A stretch of 64,000 nucleotides of DNA from Candidatus Tectimicrobiota bacterium (GCA_026005175.1 BPKO01000001.1:248001-312000); one strand, 5' to 3'. Positions 22,599-42,880 are shown, counted from the first letter of the stretch. Translations and numbers: made by a program. Notes: generated by a model not told the origin, from the sequence alone.

Positions 22599-25500
22599 AT
22601 GATGCAGAACGATCAACATCTCGCTCCGGGCAGACGTGGTCGCGGGCTTGGAACCCTCCGAGCTGGTCGAGGTTCGGCGTGTCGCCCCCTTCGGCAACAA
22701 GACGCTGGTCGAAGGGGTCGGGCTCCAGTCCCGCCGGGTGGTGAAGCGGCCCCTCGCCGCTGAGGAGCTGGCCGCGCTCGTCAAGGTGCGGGGCCAGCAG
22801 CATACGTTCGATGGCGATGCCCAGCTCTTCCTCCTCGGCGCCGAGGCGGAGCGCATCCGCATCGCGCACCAGTTCGACCCGCTTTTCGCGGTCAACTCCA
22901 GCATCGTCGATCCGCTTCCTCACCAGGTCGAGGCGGTCTATCGCTATCTCCTCCCCCTTCCGAGAATCCGGTTCCTGCTCGCCGACGACACGGGGGCAGG
23001 CAAGACCATCATGACCGGCCTTCTGATCAAGGAGCTGCTCTTCCGGGGAGTCGATCCAGAAGATCCTCATCATCACACCGGGCGGCCTGACGAAGCAGTG
23101 GAAAGAAGAGGAGCTCCAGGAGAAGTTCGGCCTCCACGCGCGGCTCGTCAATCGCGCCTCTTTCGAAGCGGAGCCCGGCCAGTTCTCCCGCTACGAAGAG
23201 GGCATCTTCGTCACGTCCATCGATTTCCTGGCGCGCAATGAGGGCTGTCTCAAGGCCGCTTCCGAGACGCAGTGGGACCTCGTGGTGGTCGACGAGGCCC
23301 ACAAGCTCTCGGCCTACGAGTACGGCACCAAGCTCGAGGAGAGCGAGCGCTACAAGGCGGTGAAGGCGCTCGCCCGCAAGACCGATCATCTGCTCTTCCT
23401 CACGGCGACGCCGCACCGAGGAAGAAAGGACACGTTCCGCCGGCTCCTTTTGCTCCTCGATGAAGACCTGTTCCAGAAAGACGAACACGTCGCTGACCGC
23501 GTTCGCGAGCAGGCCGCGCCCTACGGAGCTTCGGGACGAGGATTTCGAGAACGAGCGCCCGATCAGCAAGGCGCGCAACCGATTCTTCCTGCGTCGCCTG
23601 AAGGAGGAGATGGTCGACTGGGACGGGCAACCCCTCTTCAAGCCACGCCACACCAAGACCATCGGCTACGACCTCACCCCGGAAGAGAAGATCCTCTACG
23701 ACGAGGTGACGCGCTACGTCCGCTCGAAGCGCAAAGAGGCCAAGGCGAAGAAGAACCGCAACGTCGAGCTCACCCTCATGGTCATGCAGCGCCGGCTGGC
23801 CTCGCAGCCTCTATGCGATCACGCGGACGCTGGAAAACCGGCTGCGCGCCCTCAACGAGGTCCTCGCCATCCTGCGGGATCCGAGCCGATCGGAGGCGGA
23901 GAAGAAGCGGCTTCTGCGGGGAACCCCCGATCCCAGCGACCCGCGGGACATCACGGAATACGAGGACCTGACCGAAGAGGAACGCGAGCGGATCGATCAG
24001 CGGATCTTCCGTCAGGTCCTCACCGACGACCCGGACAAGGTCGAGGAGGAACGGGACGAAGTCGAGCGCCTCTTCCGCCTGGCCGAGAGCCTGAAGCACC
24101 ACACGGAAGCGAAGTTCGCCGAACTGCTCGCCGTGCTCGACTCCTCCGACGTCATCCGGGCCGAGCACGAGAAGCTCCTGATCTTCACCGAGCATCGCGA
24201 CACGCTCGAGAGCCTCGCCAGACGGCTCGAGGAGAAGGGATACACCGTCGCCACGATCCACGGCGGCATGGACGTGGACTCCCGCAAGCAGGCCCAGCGG
24301 CAGTTCCGGACGCGCGCCAAGATCATGGTCGCCACCGACGCGGCTGGCGAAGGCATCAACCTCCAGTTCTGCCGCTACCTCATCAACTGGGACATCCCGT
24401 GGAACCCGAACCGGCTCGAACAGCGGATGGGGCGCATCCACCGGTACGGTCAAACCGGCGACGTCTGGGTCTACAACTCTGGTCGCCCAGAACACCCGCG
24501 AGGGCGCGGTTCTGCAGAAGGTTCTCTCGAAGCTGGACGTCATGCGGGAGCAGATGGGGTCCGACCGGGTTTACGACGTGATCGACGAGTGGCTGGAGGA
24601 CGTGCCGCTGGTGCGGCTGATCGAGAGCGCCATCGACAGCGACGACGAGTCCGCAGGGGCCAGGGAAACGGACGCCGCCCTCGCGGCGGCCTCGAGCGAG
24701 AAGGCGGAGCGGCTCATGGCCCTCCAGAAGAAGACCTCTCTCGCCTCGCGGCTGGATTTGACGGGCGGCGCGCGAGCTACGCGACGCATCGGACGAGCGC
24801 CGGCTGCAGCCCCTTTTCATCCAGCGGTTCTTCGAGCGGGCGTGGACGGCTTGCGGCGGCACGCTCCGCAAGGACGACCACTTCCCGGTCTGGCACATCG
24901 GCCCGACGCCGACCGCCCTTCTCGAACTCGCCCGCGAGCGCCGGCAGCCTCTGTCCGAGTCCTACGACACCCCCTTCGTCTTCGACAAGCAGCTCGTCAG
25001 CGTCGCGAGCAAGGTGCGCGTCCCGGAGCGCACCAAGCTCATGGGCCCCGGACATCCCCTGTTCGACACCTTGATCGAGTGGGCGATCCGGGAGGCGCGG
25101 CAGGCTTTCGCCAAGGGGGCGACCCTCGTGGACCCGAACATCGCCAAGCCCCAACGGGTGTGGCTCGTCCGTTCGACGATCGAGGACAGTCGGGGCGGCA
25201 GGCTTCCAGCCTGCGAGCTCAAACCAGAGTCGCCACGAGCGGCTGGCTGTCGTCGTTCAAGACCACATGGGCCTTCGCACGACCTCGCCCTCGTACCTGC
25301 TCAACTGCCTCGCCCCCGAGACGGCCGTGCCGGTACCCGATATGGAGTCGCGAACGGTCGAAGAGATCCAGGCGTGGGCCTACGAGCAGATCACCGAGCG
25401 GCAGCTCGAGCAGGTCAAGGCCATCCGAGCCGAGGAGTGCGAGCTGCGGCGGGAATACCTGAACACCGCGTTCACGGATCTCATCCTCGAGCTGCAGGAG

Positions 25501-26132
25501 GAGCTGAACGACCTCCAGCAGGCTCAGCTCTTCGGCGAGGAACAACAGCGACGAGGTCGAGCGCCTGCGCCGCCGGATCGAGGAGTTGAAGGCACGTAAG
25601 GCGGATCGCCTGAAAGAGCTGGAGCTCATGATGAAGCTGACGGCGAACCTCCCGGACATTCTGACGGAGGCGGTGATCGTCCCCGCCCCTGTGGCCACGG
25701 TCGAGACGGATGAGGCCGCCGAAAGGCGTCCCGATGCGCCGCGACGACGAGGTCGAGGCCATCGCGATGGACGTGGCCATGCGCTACGAGCGCAGCCGCG
25801 GCTGGACGCCTGTGGACGTGAGCCATGAGGGCGAACACTACGACATCCGCTCGGAAGGGCCGAACGGAGAAAAGCGTTTCATCGAGGTCAAGGGCCGTGC
25901 CCGCTCGGGCGCCATCGTCCTCACCGGCCCCGAGGTGGACAAGCTGCGCCAGCTCGGCGAGCGGGCCTGGCTCTACATCGTCACCTTCTGCAAGGGCGAA
26001 CGCCCCCGGCTGCGCATCATCCAGGACCCCATTGCCAGGCTCAACCCGGAGGTGTTGTACCGGCAGGTCCAGTTCCTCGTCGGAAGAGGCGACTGGTCGC
26101 GACAAGGCGACTTCATCGGAGAGATTCCATGA
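22599..26132 (+). pseudogene. SNF2-like helicase with C-terminal DUF3883 (BrxH/DISARM-type), many frameshifts and a REP insertion
   Basis: From ATG 22599 the protein can be followed across frames: LADDTGAGKTIMTGLL (Walker A), ILIITPGGLTKQWKEEELQE, VVVDEAHKLSAYEYG, LFLTATPHRGRKDTFRR, RNRFFLRRLKEEMVDWDGQP, LLIFTEHRDTLESLARRLEE, MVATDAAGEGINLQFCRYLI, RLEQRMGRIHRYGQ. The C-terminal DUF3883 reads GEHYDIRSEGPNGEKRFIEV KGRARSG. I count at least seven frame changes, e.g. a four-G run at 23045-23048, plus a REP-like palindrome at 25198. BREX-3 carries such a helicase beside brxC and pglX. The locus encodes no full-length protein as written. Confidence 0.8.
25198..25214. repeat. REP-like palindrome inside the helicase gene
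   Basis: GCAGGCT-TCC-AGCCTGC, a perfect 7-bp stem, identical in its core to the palindrome at the left end of the RAYT element at 28609. It interrupts conserved helicase sequence between STIEDSR and RHERLAVV, so it is an insertion. Confidence 0.7.
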
Positions 26133-27293: not shown

Positions 27294-27911
27294 ATGCCCG
27301 GGGGTTTGGTCATTACTGCCGCCGTTGAGGGAATCGTAGACGAGGCCGTGGTTCGAAGGCTTGTCCAACATGTGGGTGCCATCCCGGGAGCGATTTATGG
27401 CAGGAACGGCAAGCAAAGCCTCCGCCGAAAGATTCACGGCTACAACAACGCAGCCCAGCACTCTCCTTGGGTGATCTTGGTGGATCTCGATCAGGAAGCC
27501 GAATGCGCTCCACCCTTGCGTGCGGCATGGTTGGCCCGTCCGGCCCCGTGGCTTTGTTTCCGGATCGCCGTCCGCAAAGTGGAAGCCTGGTTGCTGGCGG
27601 ATCGCCGCGGCATCGCCTCGTTTCTGCGGGTGGCTCTCCGAAAAGTCCCGGTCGATCCTGAAAGCCTGACCGATCCGAAACAAACCATGGTTAACTTGGC
27701 AGGCCAATCGCGAAACCGCGAAATCCGGGAAGATATGGTTCCGCGTCCCGGAAGCGGAAGGTCGATAGGCCCTGCCTATTCCTCCCGACTCATCGAGTTC
27801 GCTACGAAGCATTGGTGTCCGGAAAAAGCCGCCGCGCATTGCGAAAGCTTGCGACGAGCGATCGCGTGCCTGGAACGGCTCAAGAAGTCCTTTGGAGGAA
27901 GACATGCTTGA
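27294..27911 (+). CDS. DUF4276-type TOPRIM-like protein, intact partner of the ATPase
   Basis: Protein of 205 residues in one frame. LVITAAVEGIVDEAVVRRLV carries the conserved glutamate of a TOPRIM-like fold, and PWVILVDLDQEAEC the DxD. FRIAVRKVEAWLLADRRGIA follows, the usual DUF4276 core. GYNNAAQHSPW lies between. These residues would bind metal for nucleic-acid cleavage. The start follows the ATPase stop by 3 bp and its end overlaps the methylase ATG by 8 bp. Unlike the similar pair at 7608-9364, this nuclease gene shows no lesion. Confidence 0.8.
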   Translation: MPGGLVITAAVEGIVDEAVVRRLVQHVGAIPGAIYGRNGKQSLRRKIHGYNNAAQHSPWVILVDLDQEAECAPPLRAAWLARPAPWLCFRIAVRKVEAWLLADRRGIASFLRVALRKVPVDPESLTDPKQTMVNLAGQSRNREIREDMVPRPGSGRSIGPAYSSRLIEFATKHWCPEKAAAHCESLRRAIACLERLKKSFGGRHA

Positions 27912-28608
27912 ACACTGCCCCTGCCTCATCGAGGTGGCGCTGCCCATTCGGGAGATCTCGGCGGAAAGCGTTCGGGACAAGAGCCTTCGGCACGGGCACA
28001 TCTCGACGCTGCATCTCTGGTGGGCGCGGCGGCCGCTGGCGGCGTCGCGCGCGGTGGTGTTCGCGTCGCTGGTGCCGGATCCGGACGATCCGCGCTGTCC
28101 GGCGGAGTTCCGGGCGGCGGTGGAGCGGCATCTCAAGACGCAGGTGCCGGCGGAACTCAAGTATTACCGGCGCGGGCGGCAGGTCCATCGGGACGAGGAC
28201 CCGTACCGCCCGTACGAGGGCATGCCGGACACGCTTCGCAACCGGCTCCTCATGTTCATCGCCAAGTGGTCGCCGGAGTCGCTGGCGTTCGAGGCGGGCA
28301 AGGCCAAGAGGGAGCCCGACCCGAAATACCTTCTGGACGATCGCTCGCTGGTGAAGTGGGAGACATCGGATCCCGAGAACCCCCAGGGGCGGGAGGTGCT
28401 GCGCATCGCGCAGGAGCTCGTGAAGGCCGCCTACGGCGGCGAGACGCCGACCGTGCTCGACCCCTTCGCCGGCGGCGGGGCGATCCCGCTGGAGGCCGGC
28501 CGGCTCGGGTGCCAGGCGATCGCCAACGACTACAACCCGGTGGCCTACCTCATTCTGAGGGCCACGTGCGAGTTCCCGCAGAAGTACGGCAAGCCGGGGT
28601 GGAGGAGA

Positions 28609-29156
28609 GTTGGGGGGGCAGGCTTCCAGCCTGCCGAGCCTCGAACCAGTTTCGACAGCCTCCCTGTTCGATCATCCTGCCCTAAAAGCTACGCGACGCA
28701 ATTTCCCGCACTGGGAGTTGGACGGTCGCATTTATTACGTCACGTTTTCAACTTGGGATCGATTCGTCATCCCGGAAGCGCAACGCTGGATTGTGCTCAA
28801 GGCTTTACAGCACTGGAATGGTGACAGGCTCCGGCTTCATCAGACTGTGGTGATGCCGGATCACGTTCACGCGTTGATCGAACCGCTCAAGGGGTATGAG
28901 CTTTCTAAGGTTCTTCATTCCATCAAGAGTTTCACGGCGAACGAAATCAACAGGGAACTGGGTAGAACCGGCCCTTTGTGGCAGCCTGAGAGCTTTGACC
29001 GGATCGTGCGAGATCGAGAGGACTACCTCAAAAAGTGGGAGTATATCCGGACAAATCCCGTGAAAGACGGATTGTGCGAACGACCTGAAGAGTGGGCGTG
29101 GCTATTTGAGGATCTGGTCGTGAAGCAGTGCAGCCTGGAAGGCTGCCCCCCAACTT
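28609..29156 (+). mobile_element. RAYT transposon with REP-like inverted ends inserted in the methylase gene
   Basis: Left end GTTGGGGGGGCAGGCTTCC followed by AGCCTGCC; right end GCAGCCTGGAAGGCTGCC followed by CCCCAACTT. The ends are inverted copies of one REP type (GTTGGGGGGCAG plus a hairpin). The element of 548 bp contains a single HUH/Y1 transposase gene. It shifts the methylase frame by one. Confidence 0.8.
28610..29154 (+). CDS. REP-associated tyrosine transposase (RAYT), no stop codon of its own
   Basis: Y1_Tnp-family protein. ATRRNFPHWELDGRIYYVTF starts the catalytic domain; VVMPDHVHALIEPLKGYEL holds the HxH metal motif, and LWQPESFDRIVRDREDYLKK WEYIRTNPVK the region with the nucleophilic tyrosine. 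A TTG at 28610 is the first start; CTG/other starts after the REP are possible. The frame has no stop at the right REP and runs straight on into the C-terminal half of the methylase, giving a 542-codon chimera. Domesticated RAYTs move or maintain REP sequences; several cognate REPs lie nearby. Confidence 0.8.
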
Positions 29157-29855
29157 GGGTTCCGAACGTTTTGGTCCACGACGTCGAGAAGTGGGCGAAC
29201 TGGATCCTCGAGCGGGCGCGGGAGAGAATCGCGCACCTCTACCCGCCCGGAAAAGATGGCCGGCCCGTGGTGGGCTACCTCTGGGCGCGCACCGCGCCGT
29301 GCTCGAACCCCTCCTGCCGGGCCGAGATCCCTTTGCTTCGCAGCCTGCTCGTCTGCAACAAGAAGGACAAGAAGGTCGCGCTCACGATGGAGGTGGACAA
29401 GGAGCGCAAGACGGTTCGGTTCGGGATCGCGGAAGGCAAGGCGATCAAAAGGACCGAGGGCACGAAACGGGAGCGGGGCCCAGCGATCTGTCCCTTCTGC
29501 GAGCAGCCGACTTCCGAGGCAGAGCTACGCCGAGCCGGTCAGGCGGGCCAGATGGGCGAGCGGATGGTGGCGGCCATCGTGGAGGGCAAGGGGGGCAAGC
29601 AATACCGCCCGGTGGAGGAGAGCGACCTCGCGGCGTTTCGAGAGGCAGCGAAGATCGAGGTCGAGCGGCCCGGCGAACTCATTCTGCCGGAGATCAATGC
29701 CGAGGATGCCGACGACGTGGCGAACTCGACCGGCATCCGGGTCCATCTCTACGGCATGAAGACGTGGGGCTCGCTCTTCAACCCGCGCCAGCTTGTGGCC
29801 ATGCAGACCTTCGTCACCTGCCTGCACGAGGCGCTGGAGGCCATGAAGCAGGAGA

Positions 29856-29912
29856 GTTGGGGGGCAGCCTTCCAGGCTGCTGATTGTGCAGGCAAGATGC
29901 CTGCCCCCCAAC
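29856..29912. repeat. REPIN: paired inverted REPs inserted in frame in the methylase gene
   Basis: GTTGGGGGGCAGCCTTCC at the left and GCCTGCCCCCCAAC at the right form an inverted pair of 57 bp with internal hairpins (GCAGCCT/AGGCTGC and GCAGGCA/TGCCTGC). Its length is exactly 19 codons without a stop, so the methylase frame is kept; it adds about 19 residues between EAMKQE and EEYRKAVG. Confidence 0.82.
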
Positions 29913-31443
29913 TTGATGAGGAGTACCGGAAGGCGGTGGGGGTGTATCTGGGATTGTGGGTGAGCCGCAACGCCATGCGGATGACGTCGGTGGGGCGCTG
30001 GGATATGGGTCGTGAAACGTTTCAAACGCCATTTGACGCTCAGGCTATCCCCATGAAGTGGGACTATCCGGAGGCCAATCCATTTACGGGGGCAACCGGC
30101 GGGTTCGAGAACCAGCTCGAATGGATTCTTCACTATCTTAGACACGAAAGTGTACCACTGGTACCCACGGAAGTTCTTCAAGGTGATGGTGCCCATCTGA
30201 GGCTTAATCATGGGACCCGCCGATGTCATAATAACTGACCCTCCATACTTCGATGCCATTGCTTATTCCGATCTTTCTGACTTTTTCTACGTTTTGGCTC
30301 AAACGCGCGATCGCTGACCTGGTGCCGGAGGTGATGGCGACGCCACTGGTTCCCAAGGCGGATGAGGCGACCGCACTCAAGCACCGTCACGGCGGGGACG
30401 CACTAGCTGCTGACATGCACTTCACCAAGAAGCTCGCCCAGGTGTTCGCCGAGGCGAAACGTGTGACGAGATCGGACGGACTCATCACGGTGATGTTCGC
30501 CCATCAATCTACCAAGGCCTGGACAGCACTCGTGAACGCGTTATTTGAAGCGGGTCTGACTGTTGACGCGACCTGGCCGATCGATACCGAACTGAAGAAC
30601 CGCTCCATTGCCCTCGGAACTTCCGCTCTTGAATCTTCCATTACAGTTGTCTGCCGCCCTCGGATCGTCGGCAGCGCCGCATCCTTCAAGCAGGTCCGCA
30701 AGGAGATCGAGCAGGTCGTGCAGGACTCGGTGAAGCGCTTCTGGTCCTACGGCTTTCGTGGCGCAGACCTCATCGTGGCCTGTTACGGCCCGGCCGTGGG
30801 CGTGTTTGGCAAGTACGAGCGGGTGGAAAAGGCCGACGGCACCCCCGTCGGGATTCCGGAGCTTCTGGACCTCGCCAGGCAGCGCGTGACGCCATCGCCG
30901 GCGAGTTCCGGGCCGACAATCTCTCGACGCTCTACTACGTCTGGGCTAACCTATACGGCGTGAGCGAACAGGCCTGGGACGACGCCCGGCTGGTCGTGCA
31001 GATCGGCGGCGACGAAGACAACGCCATGGAGGTCGCCCGCGGGCACGGCATCTTCGTGGTGGACGGCTCCAGGTGCCGCCTCGCGCTGCTCGAGGACCGG
31101 GCCGGCCGCAGGGGACTGGGCATGGACCCGAACCCGCCCCTCATCGACGCCCTCCACCGGGCCATGCTACTCTGGAAGCAGGAGAAGCGCGGCGAGCTGG
31201 TCGGGTACCTCGCGGAACGGGGTCTCCTGGAGGACGGCCCGTTCTGGAAGCTCGTGCAGGCGCTTTTCGAGGTGCTGCCGCGGCACCTCGAGGACTGGAA
31301 GCTGGTGAACGCCCTGCTCGGCGAGCGCCCGACGCTGCGCGCGGAGGGCAAGCAGACGGCGTACAGAGATGCACAGCCGGCTCTGTTTGACAGGGAGGGA
31401 TGAATGCGAGCCGTACGAGCGTAGCGACAGGAGGGCTGGGTCC

Positions 31444-32611
31444 ATGGGCGAGACGAACATGAGCGCCAGGCGTGTGGAGAAGCTCGCGCTTCTGGTCGGG
31501 TCGAACCCACTGCCCAACTACCTGGCGGCTGTGATCCTCAGGCCCCCGCGAGGTCGTCCTGCTCTATTCGCCGGAGACGCGAGAGCCGGCGGACCACCTG
31601 CGTGCGGCACTGAGAGAGCGGGACAGCACCATCGACCTGAGGGACGTGTGCATTGCCGATGCCACCGATGTCCGCAAGATCCGCGATGCTTGCTCTACCC
31701 TCAGGGTGGATCACCTCCACTACAGCGGGGGCACGAAACCTATGGCGGCGCACGCACTGCAAGCCTGTGGGCTCTGCGATTCTCAGCTCTCCTACCTCGA
31801 CGAGCGAAAAGGGCTCCTGCGGTTCGACGATGGTTACGACATCCAGCTCGATCGGGAGGACCTCGGGCTGACGCTCGAACTCCTGCTCAAGCTCCACGGG
31901 ATTGAACGCGTGGTATCCGACGGAGATAGTTCGGGAACGCCCACCGAGCACGACGCGACCGCGGTGGCACGCTACGTCCTGAACCGGCCCGAGGCCGCCG
32001 ACGAGCTGCGGACCGCGCTTCGGCCCAACGATCGGCGCCGAAACATCACACAAGCGAGGCGGGACCCCTGGCGCCCGCCTCCCGAGTTATCGCTTACCGT
32101 TTCCGTGGTTCCTGACCACGACTGGACGAACGACCGGTACAAGAAGTGGGACGCTTTCCTCTGCGGCGGGTGGCTTGAGCGCTGGATCGCGGCGCTGATC
32201 CGCACCTGCCTCGACGGAGCACCCGGCGTCGTGGACGTGGGTGTTCACTGTAAGCGCGCGCGGCCGTCCCCGGCCGAGTTCGAGATCGACGTGGCGGTGG
32301 TTCGCCGCCATCGTCTATACGTGGTCTCTTGTACGACCGACCGCAAGAAAGCGCTGTGCAAGTCCAAGCTCTTCGAGGTGTCGATGCGTGCCCGTCAGAT
32401 GGGAGGCGATTTGGCTCGCAGCGCCCTGGCCTGTCTCGTCGACCGAGGAGATGAGAAGGGTCCTTTCGTAGAGCAGCTCCGCGCGGACATCGCCAGCATC
32501 TGGGATGCGCCGAACATCCCTCGCGTCTTCGGCCTCGCGGATCTGCGCGAATGGGCAGGGGTGAGCGGCGATGTGAACCTGAGTACCTTGAAGGAGTGGC
32601 TCGACTCATGA
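31444..32611 (+). CDS. CARF-domain nuclease (Card1/Can2-like, DUF1887 type), one frameshift
   Basis: Probable cyclic-oligoadenylate-activated effector of the type III operon. AGGAGG precedes ATG 31444. The N-terminal CARF-like part reads KLALLVGSNPLPNYLAAVIL, REVVLLYSPETREPADHLRA and VDHLHYSGGTKPMAAHA. The run of five C at 31543-31547 has one base too many for a continuous frame. The C-terminal PD-(D/E)XK-like domain reads WLERWIAALIRTCLDGAPGV, FEIDVAVVRRHRLYVVSCTT, LCKSKLFEVSMRARQMGGDL. The aspartate of EIDV is present, but the usual ExK after the last strand reads SCT. It ends 13 bp before cas10. Confidence 0.72.
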
Positions 32612-32624
32612 GGAGAGGTATGGC

Positions 32625-34181
32625 ATGCCGGTTCTGACGGGCATTGACGTGCTGGGCGTGCAACGGTACGTGTTCGCTTCGAACCGCCTGCGCGACACAG
32701 TAGCAGCATCGTGGCTGGTTCAGTGGGCCACGGCGCGAGACGGGGCGCTCGACGGCAGCGGCGGGGACGTGCTCCAGGCGAGCGGCGGGGTGGCGATCCT
32801 GAGCTTCCCGGACGAAGCGCGGGCGCGCGACTTCGCCACTCGTTACACGCGCCGGCTGTACGACGTGGCCCCCGGTCTGGAAGTCGCGGTGGCGCACCGA
32901 AGCTATTCCTCGGGCGGGCTCGCCAGGGCGATGGAGCAGCTTCAGATCGATCTCGCCGTCGCTAAGCTCGAGCGCGTGCCATCTTCCCCACAGCTCGGGC
33001 TCTCGGTAACGGCATCCTGTCGCATCACGGGATTGCCGGCCAGCGGCTGCGACCCCCAGGATCCGACCGTTCCGTTGGCGCGCATGGTTCTCCGCTGGCG
33101 TGACTCCGATGTGCGCGCGAACGCGACAAGCCGATGGGACGCCTATCTCGATGGCGACGCTCGCTACGCCTTCCCGGCCGAGATCGACGACATGGGCAGG
33201 ACGCGGGGAGAGACCAGCCTTCTGGGTGTGGTCCACGTGGACGGAAACGGCGTGGGGAGGCGGATCGCGTCTTGGTTGCGGCAGTGCGTCGAGAAAGGGC
33301 GGTCGGACGACGACGTTCGTCGTGGCGTGGCCGCCTGGTCCTCGGCCCTCGACGAGTGCGGGAGGCGCGCCCTCCGGGCCGTCGTGCACCGCGTGGTTGC
33401 TGCGACGAAGCAAAACGACCAGGGAACGTGGTGCCTGGTCGGAGCCGTCCCGCAGCTCGCGTTCCAGCTCAAGAGCCAGAATGACCGGGTACTATTGCCT
33501 CTTCGCCCGGTCCTGCTGGGCGGAGACGACCTTACGTTCCTCTGCGACGGGAGGATCGCCCTCGACCTCGCGGAAACGGCGCTGGAGGTCTTTACCGGCG
33601 ATGCTCCGTCTCTGGGTCGGGTGACTGCCTGCGCCGGTGTGGCGGTGGTTCCCTCGCACACCCCATTCGAGCGAGCCTACGCCCTCGCCGAAGCACTCTG
33701 CAACCACGCAAAGCAGCGCCGCCGCGAGCGCAACGACGACGGGAGTTGGATTGACTGGCACATCGGGGCGCCGCGTCCCGGAGAAGGTATTCGCGAGCTC
33801 AGGGCCCGCGCCTATTCGCACCGTACTGCTGCCACCTTCCTCAAGCTGACGTGCCGTCCGTACCGCCTCGGTTCAGGCCCCGAGGATCCAGAGACATGGC
33901 GGTGGCTGTCGCGGAACGTCCTCGGGACGGGCGCGAACGGCTTTCGGGGGCCGCGCTGGGCGCAGCATCGCAACAAATTGAAGCAGCTCGCGTGGGTTGT
34001 GCGCGAGGGCCCGGACGGCGTGCAGCGCGCTCGCGAGGCATGGACTGCAGCGGCGGACATTCCTTGGCCCAGTGATCTCGACAAGACTAACGGCTTCTTT
34101 GATGGAGTTCGGACGCCACTTTTGGACGCGCTAGAGCTGCTGGGCATCCATCTGCCCCTCGATAGGGAGGCGCACATATGA
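32625..34181 (+). CDS. cas10: Cas10-like large subunit, short form without HD nuclease domain
   Basis: Protein of 518 residues. The N-terminus, LTGIDVLGVQRYVFASNRLR DTVAAS, resembles the first palm/Cmr2-type start. GVVHVDGNGVGRRIASW gives the first-palm acidic site, and VLLGGDDLTFLC places GGDD at residues 299-302, the cyclase signature for making cyclic oligoadenylate. No HD motif precedes the palm and the protein is well below the usual 700-1000 residues, so single-strand DNA cleavage by Cas10 is not expected. The stop overlaps the next start (ATGA). The neighbouring CARF nuclease is the natural receiver of its signal. Confidence 0.82.
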   Translation: MPVLTGIDVLGVQRYVFASNRLRDTVAASWLVQWATARDGALDGSGGDVLQASGGVAILSFPDEARARDFATRYTRRLYDVAPGLEVAVAHRSYSSGGLARAMEQLQIDLAVAKLERVPSSPQLGLSVTASCRITGLPASGCDPQDPTVPLARMVLRWRDSDVRANATSRWDAYLDGDARYAFPAEIDDMGRTRGETSLLGVVHVDGNGVGRRIASWLRQCVEKGRSDDDVRRGVAAWSSALDECGRRALRAVVHRVVAATKQNDQGTWCLVGAVPQLAFQLKSQNDRVLLPLRPVLLGGDDLTFLCDGRIALDLAETALEVFTGDAPSLGRVTACAGVAVVPSHTPFERAYALAEALCNHAKQRRRERNDDGSWIDWHIGAPRPGEGIRELRARAYSHRTAATFLKLTCRPYRLGSGPEDPETWRWLSRNVLGTGANGFRGPRWAQHRNKLKQLAWVVREGPDGVQRAREAWTAAADIPWPSDLDKTNGFFDGVRTPLLDALELLGIHLPLDREAHI

Positions 34182-34813
34182 CCCTTCGCCCTGAGAGCCT
34201 CGTTGTCGAGCTCCTCTCCGACACGACGTTCGGGCGTGGAGAGGGCACGCCGGGCGTCGTCGATGTGGAGGTCGAGCACGACAACCATGGCCTGCCCATG
34301 CTGGGTGGCAAGGCGCTGCGAGGCCTTCTACGCGACTCGTGGCTGTCGATGCAGGCGTACTTTCCGGACCTGCACGGCGCGGCCTGCCGGGTGTTCGGCC
34401 CTCACGGCGACCTCGATGAGACGGCTATCCTCCGCATCGGCGATGCGATAGTGGAACCCGCCGCCCGCGCCTACTTCGTCGCCGCCTCCGAGCGTGAGCA
34501 CCATCCGCTGGATCGGGCGACCATTCTCGAAGCGCTCACCGATATTCGGTCGCAGACTGCGGAGGAGCGCTCCACGGGTGCGCCAGCCCGCAGGACGTTG
34601 CGGACGGTTCGCGTCGTACTGCGCGGGTTGAAGCTTGTCGCGCCTCTTTTGTGGCTTGCGAAACCAGACGCGAAGGACTGTCAGTGCCTGGCCCTCGCGG
34701 CTCTGGCCACGCGACATGGCGGTCTCGGCCGCAATCGGGGCCGAGGCCACCTACGCATCACGGTGGATGGGAACTTGGATCGAACCCGGGCGCTCGCGCG
34801 AGGTACAGCATGA
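34178..34813 (+). CDS. Cas7-like RAMP protein (Csm3-type)
   Basis: Backbone subunit of a type III effector, 211 residues. DTTFGRGEGTPGVVDVEVEH, DNHGLPMLGGKALRGLLRDS is the RAMP opening with an aspartate before the GLP.L.G..LRG.LRD signature, placed like the RNA-cleaving aspartate of Csm3. RHGGLGRNRGRGHLRI is the C-terminal glycine-rich loop of the RAMP fold. Four-base overlaps link it to cas10 and csx10. One of three Cas7-type units in the operon. Confidence 0.78.
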   Translation: MTLRPESLVVELLSDTTFGRGEGTPGVVDVEVEHDNHGLPMLGGKALRGLLRDSWLSMQAYFPDLHGAACRVFGPHGDLDETAILRIGDAIVEPAARAYFVAASEREHHPLDRATILEALTDIRSQTAEERSTGAPARRTLRTVRVVLRGLKLVAPLLWLAKPDAKDCQCLALAALATRHGGLGRNRGRGHLRITVDGNLDRTRALARGTA

Positions 34814-36468
34814 TTTGCCGCTACCTGCCCTACACATTGACGTTGCACGCTCCGGCGGTCCTGACCGCGCTCGGCGGGGACCCCAACAGCTCGCGCACAC
34901 TACCGTTCATTCCGGGGTCTGCGATTCGCGGTGCCGCCGCTCGTGCGCTCGGAGACCCCGGTACGGATCCGCAACGACTGCGGACCTTCCGGGCGCTTAT
35001 CCTCGATGGTAGCGTCCGCTTTCTCAATGCCTACCCGCGTGTGGCGGGCAGGAGAGCGCTACCGACGCCGGTGTCACTCCGCGTGGACAAGACGGCGGTG
35101 CTTGGGCCGGACGGGGAACTGGAGGCCTGGGACCTGGCGGCCTTTGCTGGCGTGCGGGAGGATGACGAAAACGACTGGCCCGAAGTCACATTCTCTCCGG
35201 TCCCGGAGCCTTTCGTGACGATCAGCGCGGCACAGCCAGTGCGCGTTGGCCCCGCTCGCGGCAGTCGCATTCATCAGCAGCGCGACCGGCAGCGGGGACG
35301 TGCGTGGAAGGATCCGACGACCGAGGAGCCGCACGGAACGATCTTCGTCTTCGAGTTCCTGGAAGCGGGCCAAGAGTTCGATGGGCTCGTTCAGGTCTTC
35401 GGGGAAGATGAGGCGGCGTGCGAAGCCTTGGAGCGCCAAGTCAAGGCGGCGCTCGAGCCCCCAATCCTCATCGGGAGATCCCGGCGTGGTGGCTATGGCG
35501 GCGACGCCACGATTTCGTGGGCTCAGGCACGGGACAGGGAGGTGATTGGTCAGGGTTTAGTCGGCGCGGATCTTCCCGCGGGCAGGCAGTTCCGCGCCGT
35601 CCTCACATCGCCGTATATCGGCCGCGACCCCCACACTGGGCAGCTCGACCCTTCACGCTTCGCGGAGGAGATTGTGGAAAGACTCCGGGGTCGCGCGAGG
35701 ATCGTGCGGCGACGGTGGAGCTTCGACCTCGCCGGAGGCTTCAATCGGAAGTGGCGGCTGGAGATCCCTCAGGCCCTTGCGTGCGCGGCCGGGTCCGTGC
35801 TGGTGCTGGAGACGACGAAGCCGATTCGCCTGGCCGACCTGCTGGAGGTGGAGCACAGCGGACTCGGTGAGCGGCGCGTGGACGGGTTCGGCCGTTTGAC
35901 GTTCCTCGAAGCGCCCTCCCAAAGGCTGGTGCTCCGCGTGCCCTCGCCGACGCCCGTGAAGGCGCCGGCAGAAGGCGAGGTTCCCGAGCTGGTTCGATTT
36001 GCCGAGGCTCGCATCGTGGACGCAGCCGTAGAACGTGCCATTCGAGAGGAAGCTGCGCGCCTCGCTCGAAGCGCGACGAGGATCCCGACGCCAAGCCTCC
36101 TCGGTCGTCTTCGCAACGCCATGAGACCGGAGCCGGAGACGGCGCTCGCGACGATCCGGACCTGGCTCGGGCACGACGGACCCTCGGAGACCCGGCTTAG
36201 GCGTCCAGCCCTGGATCAGCTGGAGCGCTGCCGACTGGACAAGGGACAGCGACTTTCTGACTGGCTACGCGAGATGGCTGCCACTGATGGCGGGCAGCAG
36301 CTCGCGGAAACACTGAGGCTCGATGCCCTCGTCCAGAGATTCCACATCATCTCCGAAGCCACGGCGCGCGAGCATCTCGGGAGCCTTGAACTTTCTTTGC
36401 GCGCGCGGTTCATCGACAACGTGCTTGCTGCTCTCTCCCGGACAAAACGCCAACGGAGGTCATCGTGA
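34810..36468 (+). CDS. csx10: Csx10-family RAMP protein (type III-D)
   Basis: Protein of 552 residues. The start, YLPYTLTLHAPAVLTALGGD followed by SRTLPFIPGSAIRGAAARAL, and the block FLNAYPRVAGRRALPTPVSL fit Csx10, the Cas5-like subunit of subtype III-D. RIHQQRDRQRGRAWKD and IGRSRRGGYGGDATISW follow; the second holds the glycine-rich loop. ERRVDGFGRLTFLEAP is a second such loop. The C-terminal 180 residues are helical and charged and may include a fused small-subunit-like part. ATG overlaps the upstream stop; its own stop overlaps a GTG. Confidence 0.8.
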   Translation: MICRYLPYTLTLHAPAVLTALGGDPNSSRTLPFIPGSAIRGAAARALGDPGTDPQRLRTFRALILDGSVRFLNAYPRVAGRRALPTPVSLRVDKTAVLGPDGELEAWDLAAFAGVREDDENDWPEVTFSPVPEPFVTISAAQPVRVGPARGSRIHQQRDRQRGRAWKDPTTEEPHGTIFVFEFLEAGQEFDGLVQVFGEDEAACEALERQVKAALEPPILIGRSRRGGYGGDATISWAQARDREVIGQGLVGADLPAGRQFRAVLTSPYIGRDPHTGQLDPSRFAEEIVERLRGRARIVRRRWSFDLAGGFNRKWRLEIPQALACAAGSVLVLETTKPIRLADLLEVEHSGLGERRVDGFGRLTFLEAPSQRLVLRVPSPTPVKAPAEGEVPELVRFAEARIVDAAVERAIREEAARLARSATRIPTPSLLGRLRNAMRPEPETALATIRTWLGHDGPSETRLRRPALDQLERCRLDKGQRLSDWLREMAATDGGQQLAETLRLDALVQRFHIISEATAREHLGSLELSLRARFIDNVLAALSRTKRQRRSS

Positions 36469-37910
36469 ACCCCGCATTGACCACCGTTCTGAGCGATTCG
36501 GGCGGCGTTCGGTCCGTCGTCGCCCGCTGGACGATCGAAGCGGACCTGGTCCTCGAGAGCGCGACCCATCTCGGAGGTGAGTCTTTGGAGCCGACGGACA
36601 TGATGCTTCTACGGGACCCGCGCACCGGTCGGCCGCTCCTTCCCGGAACGTCGCTGGCAGGTGCCCTGCGGTCGCACCTGGCGGATGTGCTGGGCGGTTA
36701 TCGAACGGCGGAGGATGCGCGCGTGGCTCGGCTGTTCGGCGGTGCGCGTGGGGATGACGTAGGGCCGCAGAGTCCGGTGATCGTGTTCGACAGCTTGGGT
36801 GAATTGCCAGCCAACTACCCGGTCGAGATTAGGGACGGGGTTCAAATCGATGCCGCGCGGGGCATCGCGGAGGATCGGAAGAAGTTCGACTTCGAGGTTC
36901 TGCCGACAGGCACGCGGTTCCCGCTACGGTTCGATCTACTGATTCCCAGCGCAAATCAGGAAGAGGAACTCCTGAGCCTTCTGGTGACGGCGCTCGGCGG
37001 ACTCTCCTCGGGCGATATTGTGCTGGGAGCTCGACGCTCACGGGGACTCGGGGCTGTGCGCACCGAAGGTTGGCGCAGCGTCCGATATGACCTTTCCTCG
37101 CGCGACGGCTGGATGTCGTGGATCCTTTCTGATGCCGAGTCTCCAACCGCACGCGACGGGAAGGACCATCATGATGCGGCGGCTGCCTGCCAGGCTGCCC
37201 GGCCTGGCTTGATGTTGCAGCGCTACGACGACCGGCGGCGGCGAATCGTTGCCGAACTCGCTCTCTGCTTGAAGCGTCCCCTGCTTGTTCGCAGCGCGCC
37301 AGTGACCCCTGACGCGCCGGACGCTGCGCACATGCAGTCGGCTGGACGGTCCGTCCTACCGGGAACCAGCCTAGCCGGGGTACTTCGTAAGGAAGCCCTG
37401 CGCGTGGCGCGCATCGTGCGACAAACTCAGGGCGACGCCGCCCTATGGGTGGAGCGGCTCTTCGGGGCGAGAATGGAGGGAACCGAGAACATTGTCTCCA
37501 CGCAACTTAAGGCCTCACGGCTTCGCATCAGCGAGAGCGCTATCGAGCATGGCACGCGCACCCGGCCCGCGCGTGTCCGCATCGATCGCTTCACGCAGGG
37601 CGTCGTGCCAGGCGCGCTGTTCGATGAGGAGGTGGAGCACGCCGGCACGGTCCGAGTGCGCATGGAGCTTCGCAATCCTGAGCCCGGGGAGCTGGGCCTT
37701 CTCGTTCTGCTGCTCAAGGATCTTCTAAGCGGCGATCTCCCCGTCGGCGGGACGTCGGCCGTTGGTCGCGGAGTCATGCAGGGAACGGCGACCCTACGCT
37801 TGGAGGACGCGGCTGAAGTGTCTCTGGATCCTGAAAAACCTGTGGACCCACGAATTGACCGCGCCATCGAGGAGTTCTGGAACTTGCCTGCAATGGGAGG
37901 TAGCACGTAA
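36465..37910 (+). CDS. Double RAMP protein: two fused Cas7-like domains
   Basis: Protein of 481 residues with two RAMP units. Unit one: IEADLVLESATHLGGESLEP, LLRDPRTGRPLLPGTSLAGA, and LGARRSRGLGAVRTEGW. Unit two: PDAPDAAHMQSAGRSVLPGT SLAGVLRKEA and GGTSAVGRGVMQGTATL. Each has the D...LPGTSLAG.LR opening and a glycine-rich loop, the standard Cas7 layout. Fusion of backbone subunits is known in III-D and III-E systems. GTG start overlaps csx10; the stop overlaps csx19 (TAATG). Confidence 0.78.
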   Translation: MNPALTTVLSDSGGVRSVVARWTIEADLVLESATHLGGESLEPTDMMLLRDPRTGRPLLPGTSLAGALRSHLADVLGGYRTAEDARVARLFGGARGDDVGPQSPVIVFDSLGELPANYPVEIRDGVQIDAARGIAEDRKKFDFEVLPTGTRFPLRFDLLIPSANQEEELLSLLVTALGGLSSGDIVLGARRSRGLGAVRTEGWRSVRYDLSSRDGWMSWILSDAESPTARDGKDHHDAAAACQAARPGLMLQRYDDRRRRIVAELALCLKRPLLVRSAPVTPDAPDAAHMQSAGRSVLPGTSLAGVLRKEALRVARIVRQTQGDAALWVERLFGARMEGTENIVSTQLKASRLRISESAIEHGTRTRPARVRIDRFTQGVVPGALFDEEVEHAGTVRVRMELRNPEPGELGLLVLLLKDLLSGDLPVGGTSAVGRGVMQGTATLRLEDAAEVSLDPEKPVDPRIDRAIEEFWNLPAMGGST

Positions 37911-38479
37911 TGCGTATCGAAGGCTGCCGGATCGAGCTGCTCGACCATTCCGCCTGCACAGCTTGGCTCGACCACGTGCTCGGCCGCGCCCCCGCGCCCG
38001 CGGACCTCGGTGATCCGGCGTGGTTGCTTTGCCACAGCGACGACGGCGTGACCTGGGGTCACCGCGATGGCGGTGTGTGGCGGTTGGCGTCGGCCTTTTT
38101 CCCGGAGCCATGCCCAGTGCCGTCGGAGATCAGGGTCCAGGAGATGCGTGTGTTCTCGTCAAAGGCGGAGGTACTGATTTGGCGTACCGACAATGGCCTG
38201 CGCGGACGTATGCTGGTTGATGACGATCACGGCCAGGTCGAAGACTCGCTCCGACCTGACGACGAGGAGCGCCTCCTGCTTTCAGGGCAGGTACACGACG
38301 AGCGGGACGGGTTCACGTGCGTCAGCGACGGCGGTGGGGGGATGCAGGTCTTGCCCCTACGGGTCCCGAAGAGGGACTCGTCCCGCTGGCCGCGGCTTCG
38401 TGTCCGCCACTACTTCGCGCGGGAAGAGAACACCGGCTCCATCCGGGTCGTTGCTACACGCCTCGTGGAGGTGAAATGA
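37910..38479 (+). CDS. csx19: Csx19-family CRISPR-associated protein
   Basis: Protein of 189 residues. The pattern WLLCHSDDGVTWGHRDGGVW, FPEPCPVPSEIRVQEMRVFS and KAEVLIWRTDNGLRGRML matches the Csx19 (TIGR03984) family found with type III-D genes; its molecular role is unknown. RLRVRHYFAREENTGSIRVV ends the protein. It is sandwiched between two RAMP genes with overlapping start and stop codons, so it is part of the same operon. Confidence 0.75.
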   Translation: MRIEGCRIELLDHSACTAWLDHVLGRAPAPADLGDPAWLLCHSDDGVTWGHRDGGVWRLASAFFPEPCPVPSEIRVQEMRVFSSKAEVLIWRTDNGLRGRMLVDDDHGQVEDSLRPDDEERLLLSGQVHDERDGFTCVSDGGGGMQVLPLRVPKRDSSRWPRLRVRHYFAREENTGSIRVVATRLVEVK

Positions 38480-40922
38480 TGCCTCGGCACGTGAATCCAA
38501 CCACACCGGACCGCACCGCGATTGCACCGTACAACTTCGTGCCACTGCCAGAGCGTGTCTTCACCGTGGAGAACGGGATCGAAGTCGGCGGCGAGAGGGT
38601 CAAGCCCTGGGAGATGCACGACCAGTACATACCCGGCACCCACAGCGGCTGGATCGACCTCAGGATCGAGACTCTCACGCCACTCTACATCCGTGGCGCC
38701 ACGGTCACGGACGTCCAAGAAAAGTGGGACGCCCGTGACGCGCGGCTTCGTCCCGATCCCTACAGGTACCCCGACGGCACCCCGGCCATCCCGGGGTCGA
38801 GCCTCCGGGGCATGGTACGGACTCTGGTCGAGATTCTCTCTTTCGGGAAGATCCAGCCTGTGAGTCCGGCGAAGCCGTTCTTTCGCGACATAAGCCCTGG
38901 CCGGATCAGCACTGAGTACCGTCGCCATTTCATCGAGGACCTCGGAACGATCCACAAAGGGACCGACATTCAAACCGGTCGGCCGGTGCAACGGTCGGCA
39001 CCGGGCTATCGAGCGCGAGTGCGGGCAGGGTTTATCGATCTGCGCAGCCAGACGATCCGCGAGTGTGTGTTTGCTCGGATCGAACACGATCTCATCAGTA
39101 AAACCTTCGCAGCCCCTATCCTCTGCGGATCGGGCCCGATGGCGACACCGAACTGGGCTTTTCAGCACTCTCGGATCTGGGTTCGGGTCGATCCGGTTGA
39201 GCGAGACTACTTTTTTAAGCGCAAGAGCACTGCACGGGGCCGCCAGCGACATCCCGACCTGTATCTCAGGTTCCGGAAAATCCAAGCGGCGTTGCCTTCC
39301 GAAAGGGACGGATATCAGCCAGCTACTCTTGTGATCACTGGCGGCGTTCCACACAAGCATCTTGAGTTCGTCTTCCTTGACCCGCCTCGAGAGGGCCCCG
39401 CATGGTCCGGATTCCAGACGACGTTTTGGATCGCTTTCACAGCGAAGATCAAATCACCCAGTGGCAGCAGAAGGCATTTCCGACCGACCAGCCGAAGGCG
39501 GGATGTCGAACGGCGCCCGGGCACCTGCGCGACGGCGAACCCGTGTTTTTTCTCACTGATGACGCTGGAAATCTCGTCTTTCTCGGCCGCGCTCAGATGT
39601 TCCGGTTTCCTTACGACCTGAGTCCGGAGGATCTTGTCCCTGAGGAGATACGCAGCGCGCGACTAGACTTTGCCGAAGCGATCTTCGGCAAGGTGGACGA
39701 AAACGGCGCGATCAAGGGGCGCGTTCAATTCGAAGATGCAGTGGCGGTTGAAGGCGGGCCAGAGTGGTACGAATCGTTACTCGTTCCCCAGATCCTATCG
39801 GCTCCGAAGCCGACAACCTTTCAACACTACCTCGCGCAGGACGGGAGGAAGGACAAGGACGAACTCACCACCTACCTGGAGGGGGACCGCACGACGATCC
39901 GCGGCCACAAGCTGTACTGGCACCGCTGGGATGAGCGGAGCGGCATTGCGCAGGTCAAGGAGCCCAACGACCACGACAGACGCCTCGAGGACCTACAACA
40001 GGTGAGCCCCGCGGACACGCAGCATACTATCATTCGCCCGGTGAAAGCGGGGGTCGTCTTCGCTGGCCGTGTCCGCTTCGAGAACCTGACCGACTTGGAG
40101 CTCGGTGCCCTGCTAGCAGCGCTCGAGCTGCCCGAAGGGTGCTGCCACCGCCTCGGAATGGGCAAACCGCTCGGGCTCGGAAGCGTCCGGATCAAGACTC
40201 GGCTCTGTCTTGTGGATCGGGCCGCCCGCTACCGAGCGTGGCAACCTACAGGCGAGATCGCCGGGGAAGATGGGAGTCGCTTCCGCACGGCCTTCGAGAA
40301 CGCAATGCTTCAGCACGCCCGATCGTCGGGCGAAACATTGCTGACTGACCAGCAAGGCCTTCGGCAGATCGCCCGTCTTGATGCTCTCTACCAGATGCTC
40401 TCGTGGGTGAACCGGCCGTCGCGCGACGCCACCCGCTACATGGTGATCGAAGGAGGCGACGCCACCCGTTACCCCAAGGATAACCGGGGGAATGTGAACG
40501 AGTTTCGAACCCGTCCGGTGCTCCCGACGCCGCACGCCGTGGCGGGTCGCACAGAGCCCGCGTGGCCGCCCGATCCCCCGCAGCCACGCTCGGCAGGTGG
40601 AAGTGTGGGTGTACCGACGCCGCCCAGTTCTCACGGCCCGGGCACGAGCGCTTCGCCCTCGCCCCGGTCACACTCTCCGACCGCCAGTGCGCCACCGGCC
40701 AAAGCGAAGCCTGTGCAGAAGGGACAGACGCGCACAGGAACCCTTAAGCGCAGCGCCGAAGGGTGGGTCGCCATGTTCGAGGGTGACCCACGGGAGGCCC
40801 GCATCGTCAATCCGGCCGATCTGCCGGAGACCGCCGCGGAGGGGTTGAGGGCGGAGTTTTTCATCACGGAGCAGAGCAAGCGCGGCGGGATCAAGGCGCG
40901 CTTCGAACGCGTCGAGGAGTGA
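38476..40922 (+). CDS. TIGR03986-type RAMP protein of the III-D operon, one frameshift
   Basis: Large RAMP protein of about 815 residues. Opening: YNFVPLPERVFTVENGIEVG, then DLRIETLTPLYIRGA and TPAIPGSSLRGMVRTLVEIL. In the four-C run at 39396-39399 one base seems missing; after it the frame continues VRIPDDVLDRFHSEDQITQW, EPVFFLTDDAGNLVFLGRAQ MFRFPY, and the glycine-rich HRLGMGKPLGLGSVRI. A proline/serine-rich linker (40560-40720) leads to a C-terminal S1/cold-shock-like tail, GTLKRSAEGWVAMFEGDPRE. The ATG overlaps csx19. It is the last gene of the operon; the next start is 8 bp downstream. Confidence 0.78.
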
Positions 40923-40929
40923 CAACGCC

Positions 40930-41264
40930 ATGAGGGATCTGCTGAAGCCCTCGCACGCCATCGCGACGCCTCATGAGGACATTCGCGAGGGACGCCCCGC
41001 CGAGGCGGTGTTCGCCGCCAACCTCTGGGCGGTTGTCGAAGGGACGGCCCCCCGAGGTTTACCGCGACGCCGATGGGTTTTTTCGGAAGACGTACCTGAC
41101 GACGGGGCTCTCATCGGTGCTGCGCCGGGTCGCGGGGGCTTTGTCTGGTCGCGGCGAATCGGGCGAGTGGATCATCAGCCTGCAGACCGCGCCCGACGCT
41201 GCGCGCGGAGGGCAAGCGCACGGCGTTCACGGACGCGCAGGAGTCGCTGTTTCAGACAGATTGA
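40930..41264 (+). pseudogene. DUF499 N-terminus fused to the 3' tail of a second DUF1156 methylase
   Basis: SHAIATPHEDIREGRPAEAV, FAANLWAVVEGTAP, then after a one-base shift in six C (41048-41053) EVYRDADGFFRKTYLTTGLS and IISLQTA, which is a DUF499 start. At about 41188 it jumps to RPTLRAEGKRTAFTDAQESL FQTD and a stop, a diverged copy of the last codons of the methylase at 31328-31403; 27 bp are identical. A deletion between a DUF499 gene and a second methylase gene made this joint. No function is expected. Confidence 0.75.
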
Positions 41265-41274
41265 AGGAGGCGAG

Positions 41275-41601
41275 ATGAACCAATCTCACCGCGTCAGACA
41301 GATCGTTGAAGAATATCGCGCTCGATTGGCGGAGACCCTTGGTGGAGAGCTCGAAGCGGTCGTGCTCTTCGGCTCCCAGGCGCGCGGAGATGCCGAAGCG
41401 GGTTCCGATATCGATGTGCTGTGCGTCCTGCGCGGCCCGTTCGACTACGGCGCCCTTATCCGGAGGACGGCGGAGGCAGCGGCGGAAATCAGCCTGAAGT
41501 ACGACGTAGTGATCTCCACCGCCTTCGTGACATCCGAGGACTATCGAAGGCGAAATACCCCGTTTCTCATGAATGTCCGGCGCGAGGGCGTGGCCGTATG
41601 A
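41275..41601 (+). CDS. mntA: MNT-type nucleotidyltransferase antitoxin (MntA-like)
   Basis: Protein of 108 residues with GGELEAVVLFGSQARGDAEA GSDIDVLCVL, the GSxARGxxxxxSDID signature of minimal nucleotidyltransferases. In HEPN-MNT systems it AMPylates and silences the HEPN ribonuclease. GGAGG precedes the ATG by 7 bp. The stop overlaps the HEPN start (ATGA). The gene is intact while its partner is broken. Confidence 0.85.
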   Translation: MNQSHRVRQIVEEYRARLAETLGGELEAVVLFGSQARGDAEAGSDIDVLCVLRGPFDYGALIRRTAEAAAEISLKYDVVISTAFVTSEDYRRRNTPFLMNVRREGVAV

Positions 41602-41989
41602 GCGAGAGCGAAGCCTTGTTGCAAAAGGCAAGGGACAGCGTTGCTGCGGCGCGAGTCCTACTGAGGAACGGCTACACGGATTTTGCCGCGTCGCGCGCAT
41701 ACTACGCCTGTTCTATGTGGCAGAAGCCCTCCTCGCTGTCCTGGGCGAATCGTATTGAAAGCATTCTGCTGTCATCGCTGCGTTCGGCCGAGCGTACGCG
41801 AAGCCGGGCAAGCTCGATCCCAAGTTTCATCGCTGGTTGATCGCGGCACAGAACTACCGCAACGTGGGCGACTACGGGATCGAAGCGCACGTATCGAACG
41901 TCGATGCCGAAGCGGTATGTTCGTGGGCCCAGGAGTTCATCGAGGCCGCCGAGGCTTGGCTTTCGAAGAAGGGAGGCGATCAGCCGTGA
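41598..41989 (+). pseudogene. HEPN-domain toxin, inactivated by a frameshift and a stop codon
   Basis: LLQKARDSVAAARVLLRNGY, TDFAASRAYYAC is the start of a HEPN protein. One T appears to be missing near 41713, after which the frame reads FYVAEALLAVLGESY, a TGA at about 41756, and then KHSAVIAAFGRAYAKPGKLD, RWLIAAQNYRNVGDYGIEAH and a normal end. So two lesions separate three recognisable parts. The HEPN ribonuclease would not be made. Its stop overlaps the next GTG start. Confidence 0.8.
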
Positions 41990-42417
41990 CAGAGCTCAAC
42001 CCCTGGTACGCCATCGCGACACCTCACGAGGACATCCGCGAGGGACGCCTGGCCGAGGCGGTGTTCGCCACGAACCTCTGGGCCGTCGTCCAGGGGACGG
42101 CTCCCGAGGTCTACCTCGACCCCGAGGAGTTCTTTCGGAAGACGTACCTCACGACCGGGCTGTCCACGGTGCTGCGCCGGGTCGCGGAGGCGTTGTCTGG
42201 TGGGGGAGAATCGGGCGACCGAATCATCAGCCTGCAGACCGCCTTTGGCGGCGGCAAGACGCACACGCTGCTCGCCCTGTGGCACTTTGGCGAAACACGC
42301 AAAGCGATTGAAGGACTCGCCGCACGCCGAGGGGCTTAGAAAGGCCATCGGCGGGCGGTTCCCTGAGAACGTGAAAGACGTTGCCGTCTTCACGAACCAG
42401 ACCTGCGACGCGACGCA
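41986..42417 (+). pseudogene. DUF499 ATPase N-terminal fragment, truncated by IS110 DNA
   Basis: GTG start overlapping the HEPN stop, with GGGAGG upstream. YAIATPHEDIREGRLAEAVF, LDPEEFFRKTYLTTGLSTVL and LQTAFGGGKTHTLLALWHF (Walker A) are classic DUF499. After a one-base shift near 42285 the sequence continues AKHAKRLKDSPHAEGLRKAI, PENVKDVAVFTNQTCDATQ. IS110-like sequence then begins. DUF499 ATPases accompany DUF1156 methylases and SNF2 helicases in defence loci; this copy is nearly identical in design to the chimera at 40930. Confidence 0.8.
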
Positions 42418-42857: not shown

Positions 42858-42880
42858 TGGGGTCAGGTCTTGAATCATGA
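42858..42880 (+). repeat. 23-bp repeat, copy 1 (left end of inverted pair)
   Basis: Contains GGGGTCAGGTCTTGAATC; four copies occur in the window. This one faces 44717-44739 across 1.9 kb holding an alpha/beta-hydrolase scrap and a DUF433/PIN pair. Confidence 0.75.

Follow-up and report, generated by a model that had tools for sequence, protein, structure and literature searches.

Seven genes in a single strand make up a type III-D1 CRISPR effector operon at positions 31444-40922 of the window, the 64,000-nucleotide stretch of a Candidatus Tectimicrobiota genome analysed here. Their order is CARF/PD-DExK nuclease, Cas10, Cas7, Cas5-Cas11 (Csx10), Cas7-2x, Csx19 and Cas7-insertion; they and the Hma parts between 22636 and 42393 described below lie on the plus strand. 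The first gene (31444..32611) encodes a Card1/Can2-like CARF protein with a PD-DExK nuclease, named Csx1 in PADLOC (1e-49); it also matches Pfam Card1_endonuc (7e-6, just below the cut-off) and the DUF1887 protein of PDB 8q44 (4e-13). Cas10d (32625..34181; PADLOC Cas10d 8e-101; PDB 8s9t Cas10 6e-25) carries a GGDD motif and is without an HD domain. Cas7 is a separate gene (34178..34813; PADLOC Cas7_IIId 3e-56) and aligns to residues 6-208 of 8s9t_A. Csx10, which combines Cas5 and a Cas11-like part (34810..36468), matches PADLOC Cas5_IIId (5e-96) and, below the curated cut-off, TIGR02674 (6e-25). It is followed by the double Cas7, Cas7-2x (36465..37910; PADLOC double Cas7_IIId 3e-112; PDB 8s9t_D 4e-28), and by Csx19 (37910..38479), which reaches 81 bits with NCBIfam TIGR03984 against a curated cut-off of 35 (7e-23). 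The last gene, Cas7-insertion (38476..40922), matches TIGR03986 once in each half (1e-32 and 1e-80), with 272 bits for the C-terminal half; in relatives it is an uninterrupted single ORF. A search of the window against Rfam gave no match.

The genes are tightly packed. CARF and Cas10 are separated by 13 nt; Cas10/Cas7, Cas7/Csx10, Csx10/Cas7-2x and Csx19/TIGR03986 overlap by 4 nt, and Cas7-2x/Csx19 by 1 nt. The initial annotation had described a type III-D-like effector operon of seven genes, six of them joined by overlaps or tiny gaps, and both points hold, every gene being identified by profile. The search against Cas families that it called for matched all core proteins, and assigned each gene to III-D or to its CARF effector.

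The active sites expected of such a system are conserved. GGDD occupies residues 299-302 of Cas10 and is invariant across ten relatives; a Pfam search found no HD nuclease domain in this protein. Cas7 corresponds by homology to the Cas7 portion of the Cas7-Cas5-Cas11 fusion, and its GVVD motif aligns with D26 of III-Dv, so that the catalytic-type aspartate is kept. The Cas10 clade conserves the aspartates of Cas7-2x which align with the catalytic ones of III-Dv, as well as the PD-DExK motif region in the CARF nuclease. An AlphaFold2 model of Csx10 (pLDDT 89.5) shows a Cas5 domain (1-380) and, at the C-terminus, a helical Cas11-like domain (393-551), connected by a linker modelled with low confidence; its best fold match in the PDB is the Cas7-Cas5-Cas11 chain 8s9t_A (E 2e-24, about 600 columns). 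For Cas10, Cas7 and Cas7-2x the match to the Synechocystis III-D complex 8s9t is one of sequence, for Csx10 one of fold; the operon is therefore the Synechocystis III-Dv set with an unfused Cas7. Compared with the Nitrosovibrio copy, the window copy differs at the third position in 54-61% of codons and at the second in 17-32%. As far as codon positions can tell, this is purifying selection over a shared history; it does not imply selection at the present day.

Two genes are frame-broken in the deposited sequence: CARF in a CCCCC run at 31543 and Cas7-insertion in a CCCC run at 39396. A codon-usage frame model applied to 400 kb around the window gives 8-13.5 apparent frameshifts per 100 kb, about ten times the density in a related Entotheonella genome under the same model (0.5-1.5 per 100 kb). 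With this density, and at 77% completeness in 14 contigs, the assembly probably carries indel errors, which bears on any pseudogene claim in the window. The operon density (2 in 9.5 kb) is not clearly above this background. Decay of the operon, as a reading of the two breaks, was rejected because both lie in C-runs and the background is high. The two one-base shifts had been noted before and are confirmed; the earlier argument that so few shifts signify selection is weakened by the many apparent indels across the whole assembly, although its other half, the decay of the flank, stands for HmaA. The frameshift model places five to six breaks in the roughly 3.4 kb of this remnant, well above background, and HmaA upstream of the operon is truly decayed.

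The surroundings, previously labelled BREX/DUF499, can be named more precisely as Hma (type-1 BR). The order in the window is HmaA, HmaB, the seven III-D genes and an HmaC stub; the insertion into a DUF1156/DUF499 locus proposed earlier is thus borne out by Hma genes on both sides. The HmaA helicase remnant lies at 22636..25988 (tblastn with Chloroploca HmaA; frameshift model) and HmaB, a DUF1156 methylase, at 27892..31404 (PADLOC HmaB 1e-29; tblastn with Chloroploca HmaB). Only about 40 nt separate the 3' end of HmaB from the CARF gene downstream. HmaB is interrupted by a Y1 (IS200-like/RAYT) transposase gene at 28610-29130 (Pfam Y1_Tnp), which is flanked by short palindromes of the GCAGGCTTCCAGCCTGC type; related short repeats are found at 25182, 29128 and 29886. 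Downstream of the operon, a 5' stub of HmaC (40930..41190; direct repeats and tblastn) is cut at about codon 86 and fused to a second hmaB 3' tail (41189..41274). This tail is a direct repeat (D5), 77% identical to 31325-31410, and the methylase tail reported on either side of the operon is therefore real. The 5' end of HmaC is duplicated as well (40941-41190 and 41994-42242). Between the second tail and the second HmaC 5' part (41983..42393; PADLOC HmaC 3e-36; tblastn), that is, in a second hmaB-hmaC gap, sits a pair (41275..41980) formed by an MNT nucleotidyltransferase (41275-41601; Pfam NTP_transf_2 3e-10) and a frame-broken ORF that is HEPN-like as judged from its translation. HmaA, HmaB and HmaC are all recognisable in the window and all broken. 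Loss of the DNA between two Hma copies would explain the junction of stub and tail and what follows it; given the layout of the Chloroploca locus described below, it would also have taken away cas6, cas1, cas2 and the array. The array may have been lost in this way, but the nearest relatives are array-less without it.

Remains of a further Hma locus are present at 48027-50387, where an additional HmaC body, with 30-42% identity to its Chloroploca counterpart, is followed by HmaA-like helicase fragments. The short motif GATTCAAGACCTGACCCCA occurs at 42858, 44717, 62909 and 63262 in both orientations, as the ends of a dispersed element would.

No cas6 or adaptation genes lie beside the operon, and an array scan of the window and of about 464 kb around it found no CRISPR array within about 200 kb of the operon, in agreement with the initial annotation. 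The scan also took in the CRISPR loci of the genome, and a scan of the same type did detect the real arrays there. These are three in number, with 46, 52 and 57 repeat copies matched, at a type I-B locus (contig C9), a I-B plus III-C locus (start of C4) and a III-A locus (C4, 260-275 kb). Each array has its own Cas6, the third being at the I-B/III-C locus of C4; cas1, like cas6, occurs on C4 and C9. The repeats end in ATTGAAAC, TTTGAAAC and ATTAAGAC, like those of arrays adjoining other III-D loci, a likeness that may serve as a weak pointer to the source of crRNA. In the III-A locus, an inserted ORF interrupts cas1 (C4, about 265-268 kb; L010:15294-17722) and leaves it in several fragments. 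The N-terminal sequence of this ORF is the same as that of a transposase-like ORF at 12492-13967 of the window; it is apparently the same insertion element.

The suggestion that crRNAs are borrowed from an array elsewhere is strengthened by these three arrays and three Cas6 genes, and an operon without any guide source in the cell was rejected on the same grounds. According to passages of the 2025 classification (PMC12669027), the majority of type III loci seem to rely on Cas6 in trans, and most III-B, III-C and III-F loci are without arrays. Given the lack of a local array, the arrays and Cas6 elsewhere and this published norm, crRNAs borrowed in trans are both the ordinary and the best explanation for the array-less operon.

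Relatives of the Cas10 were sought in one genome per species, which gave 80 Cas10 loci. The window Cas10 belongs to a ten-member clade, supported by an SH-aLRT of 100, that spans about nine phyla; its nearest kin come from Nitrosovibrio, at 67% identity, and from a Bacillota MAG, at 64%. Most of the clade has no nearby array of its own, a point which, like the intact interleaving described below, the initial annotation had missed. For the copies from Nitrosovibrio, Schekmanbacteria, Hydrogenedens and Myxococcales, tens of kb of surrounding sequence contained no array; one member adjoins a type I-E-like array and two adjoin type I-G genes. cas1 is present elsewhere in the genome in 10 of the 11 genomes searched. 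An Entotheonella genome of the same family as the window genome has a III-D system of another clade, with array and Cas6 nearby. Viral contigs yielded no relative of the clade, and plasmids only distant Cas10s (28-32% identical). A second close member was not found in 400 sampled genomes of Chloroflexota or in 41 genomes of the Chloroploca family.

Chloroploca sp. Khr17 (NZ_RYFF01000039.1), of another phylum, carries an intact form of the locus. HmaA, a toxin-antitoxin-like pair and HmaB come first; the same seven genes follow, then HmaC, Cas6, Cas1 and Cas2, and finally an array. All lie on a single strand with open frames, and the HmaA, HmaB and HmaC ORFs are intact. The array (L185:4816-9679) has at least 53 repeats; the end of its repeat, ATCAGAGAGACCTCCCCGCAGTGCAGGGGATGACGAC in the orientation as read, differs from the usual GAAAC. 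The initial annotation had asked whether the seven-gene order recurs in other genomes and whether arrays are absent there too: the order is intact in Chloroploca, and an array is present there. The Chloroploca Cas10 is about 50% identical to the window Cas10 in alignment, and the Cas10 tree does not place the two as sisters; for these reasons one recent transfer behind both Hma-embedded copies was rejected. Either III-D genes entered this gap twice, or the association is old and has been lost in the others.

Among about 46 Hma loci surveyed, the hmaB-hmaC gap is mostly vacant or occupied by small modules: it is often 115 nt or less, and elsewhere it holds cargo. The cargo includes a PIN toxin, an ATPase with DUF3226, a four-helix-bundle protein, HicB/RelE-type genes and a McrBC-like pair with an AbiEii-type ATPase. 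III-D was found in the gap only in Chloroploca; the nearest plasmid Hma relatives (Meiothermus, Thermus, Gloeocapsa) have no III-D genes there. Since unrelated TA, ATPase and McrBC-like genes occupy the same gap, it seems to serve as a cargo site in which III-D is a rare and large passenger.

We consider it very probable that the operon is a type III-D1 effector module which uses crRNA in trans, belongs to a mobile, mostly array-less clade and was placed in the hmaB-hmaC gap of an Hma locus that has since decayed. By homology, and presuming that the operon is expressed, Cas10, Cas7, Cas5-Cas11, Cas7-2x, Csx19 and Cas7-insertion would assemble into one surveillance complex on a processed crRNA, supplied in trans by the other CRISPR loci of the host. 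Pairing with a target RNA would trigger cleavage by Cas7 and synthesis of cyclic oligoadenylate by the GGDD Cas10; crRNA binding and target-dependent cOA synthesis are predictions for this complex. The second messenger would then activate the CARF/PD-DExK nuclease encoded by the first gene. The Cas10 of III-Dv makes cOA, which activates Csx1 (PMC11026444). The module would have lodged between hmaB and hmaC, and Hma would have decayed afterwards. Counted against this reading are the frame breaks in two genes and the incompleteness of the assembly.

Three other readings were weighed against the trans-supplied module. Hma and III-D might together make up a single co-transcribed, composite defence, preserved in Chloroploca and in decay in the window genome, in which, for example, Hma restricts DNA while the III-D complex senses transcripts. 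The order HmaA-HmaB-[seven genes]-HmaC, on one strand in both genomes with Cas10s of only about 50% identity, speaks for such a partnership; with just two cases among the 80 Cas10 loci and about 46 Hma loci, Cas10s that are not sisters and a gap filled elsewhere by unrelated genes, caution is due and we regard it as unlikely. The operon could instead be a dying remnant that came with Hma, lost its array and cas6-cas1-cas2 through the deletion that cut hmaC, and now consists of pseudogenes. The two frame breaks and the joining of the cut hmaC to an hmaB tail at 41189-41190 fit this course, and in Chloroploca it is precisely the stretch behind the effector that carries the remainder of hmaC together with cas6, cas1, cas2 and the array. 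The close Nitrosovibrio relative is likewise array-less, and the loss of an array is therefore not necessarily a sign of decay; with the breaks in C-runs at near-background density, the remnant is quite unlikely.

The third alternative, raised in the initial annotation, is independence from CRISPR RNA; the operon could then be, for example, a defence module that senses RNA or signals by nucleotides, with a non-CRISPR trigger for the Cas10 complex. It would account for the lack of an array within 200 kb and near most relatives, and a stand-alone miniature Cas10 enzyme that gives immunity by oligonucleotide signalling is reported in a passage of PMC12657230. The operon nevertheless keeps all backbone, crRNA-binding subunits, Csx19 and the catalytic aspartates of Cas7, three arrays and as many Cas6 genes are present in the host, some relatives adjoin I-G or I-E genes, and the Chloroploca copy shares a co-directional gene run with Cas6-Cas1-Cas2-array. 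The proposal is thus unsupported and highly improbable.

The Cas10 clade exemplifies a type III effector of the plug-in kind, which passes from phylum to phylum and mostly leaves its guide store behind; whether unrelated CRISPR types share crRNAs thereby becomes directly testable. The intact Chloroploca locus is a natural system where restriction-like defence and RNA-guided signalling may be co-expressed; the interleaving is worth an experiment, although functional coupling is putative. The Hma gap, as a cargo site, is a concrete place to seek further defence modules.

The known systems closest to the operon include the III-Dv/III-D1 effector of Synechocystis PCC 6803 (PDB 8s9t; PMC11026444). 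The two share subunit set and order, an HD-less GGDD Cas10 and upstream CARF effector(s). They differ in that Cas7 and Cas5-Cas11 of the window are separate ORFs with a 4-nt overlap instead of a fusion, that cas6, adaptation genes and array are not adjacent, that the CARF protein is a PD-DExK nuclease, and that the Cas10 sequences are only distantly similar. All window core proteins score strongly with the III-D models of PADLOC (Cas10d, Cas5_IIId, Cas7_IIId). PADLOC already has unfused Cas7 and roughly 500-aa Cas5 models, so an unfused Cas7 alone is not new; the window differs by its hmaB-hmaC context. The features that define III-D1 are present: HD-less GGDD Cas10, Csx10-type Cas5, Csx19, Cas7-2x, Cas7-insertion and the Cas7 aspartates. 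An adjacent array and cas6, common in III-D but not defining, are absent. Array-less type III loci (most III-B, III-C and III-F, and III-G) likewise have an effector and crRNAs presumed to act in trans, as described in parts of PMC12669027; as a III-D the operon lies outside the usual array-less subtypes named there. The window has homologues of HmaA, HmaB and HmaC in the usual order of the Hma/type-1 DUF499 BREX-related system (as given in passages of PMC8565338 and PMC12839542), but its Hma genes are broken and a 9.5-kb CRISPR effector operon stands between hmaB and hmaC. Those passages do not mention III-D in this position, and literature text searches, which mostly covered papers free of subscription, gave no other report of it. 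The Chloroploca locus has the same Hma/III-D interleaving as the window, but intact and continued by Cas6-Cas1-Cas2 and an array. The III-D effector by itself belongs to a known kind of system; its interleaving with Hma, intact in one genome and decayed in that of another phylum, is a new arrangement.
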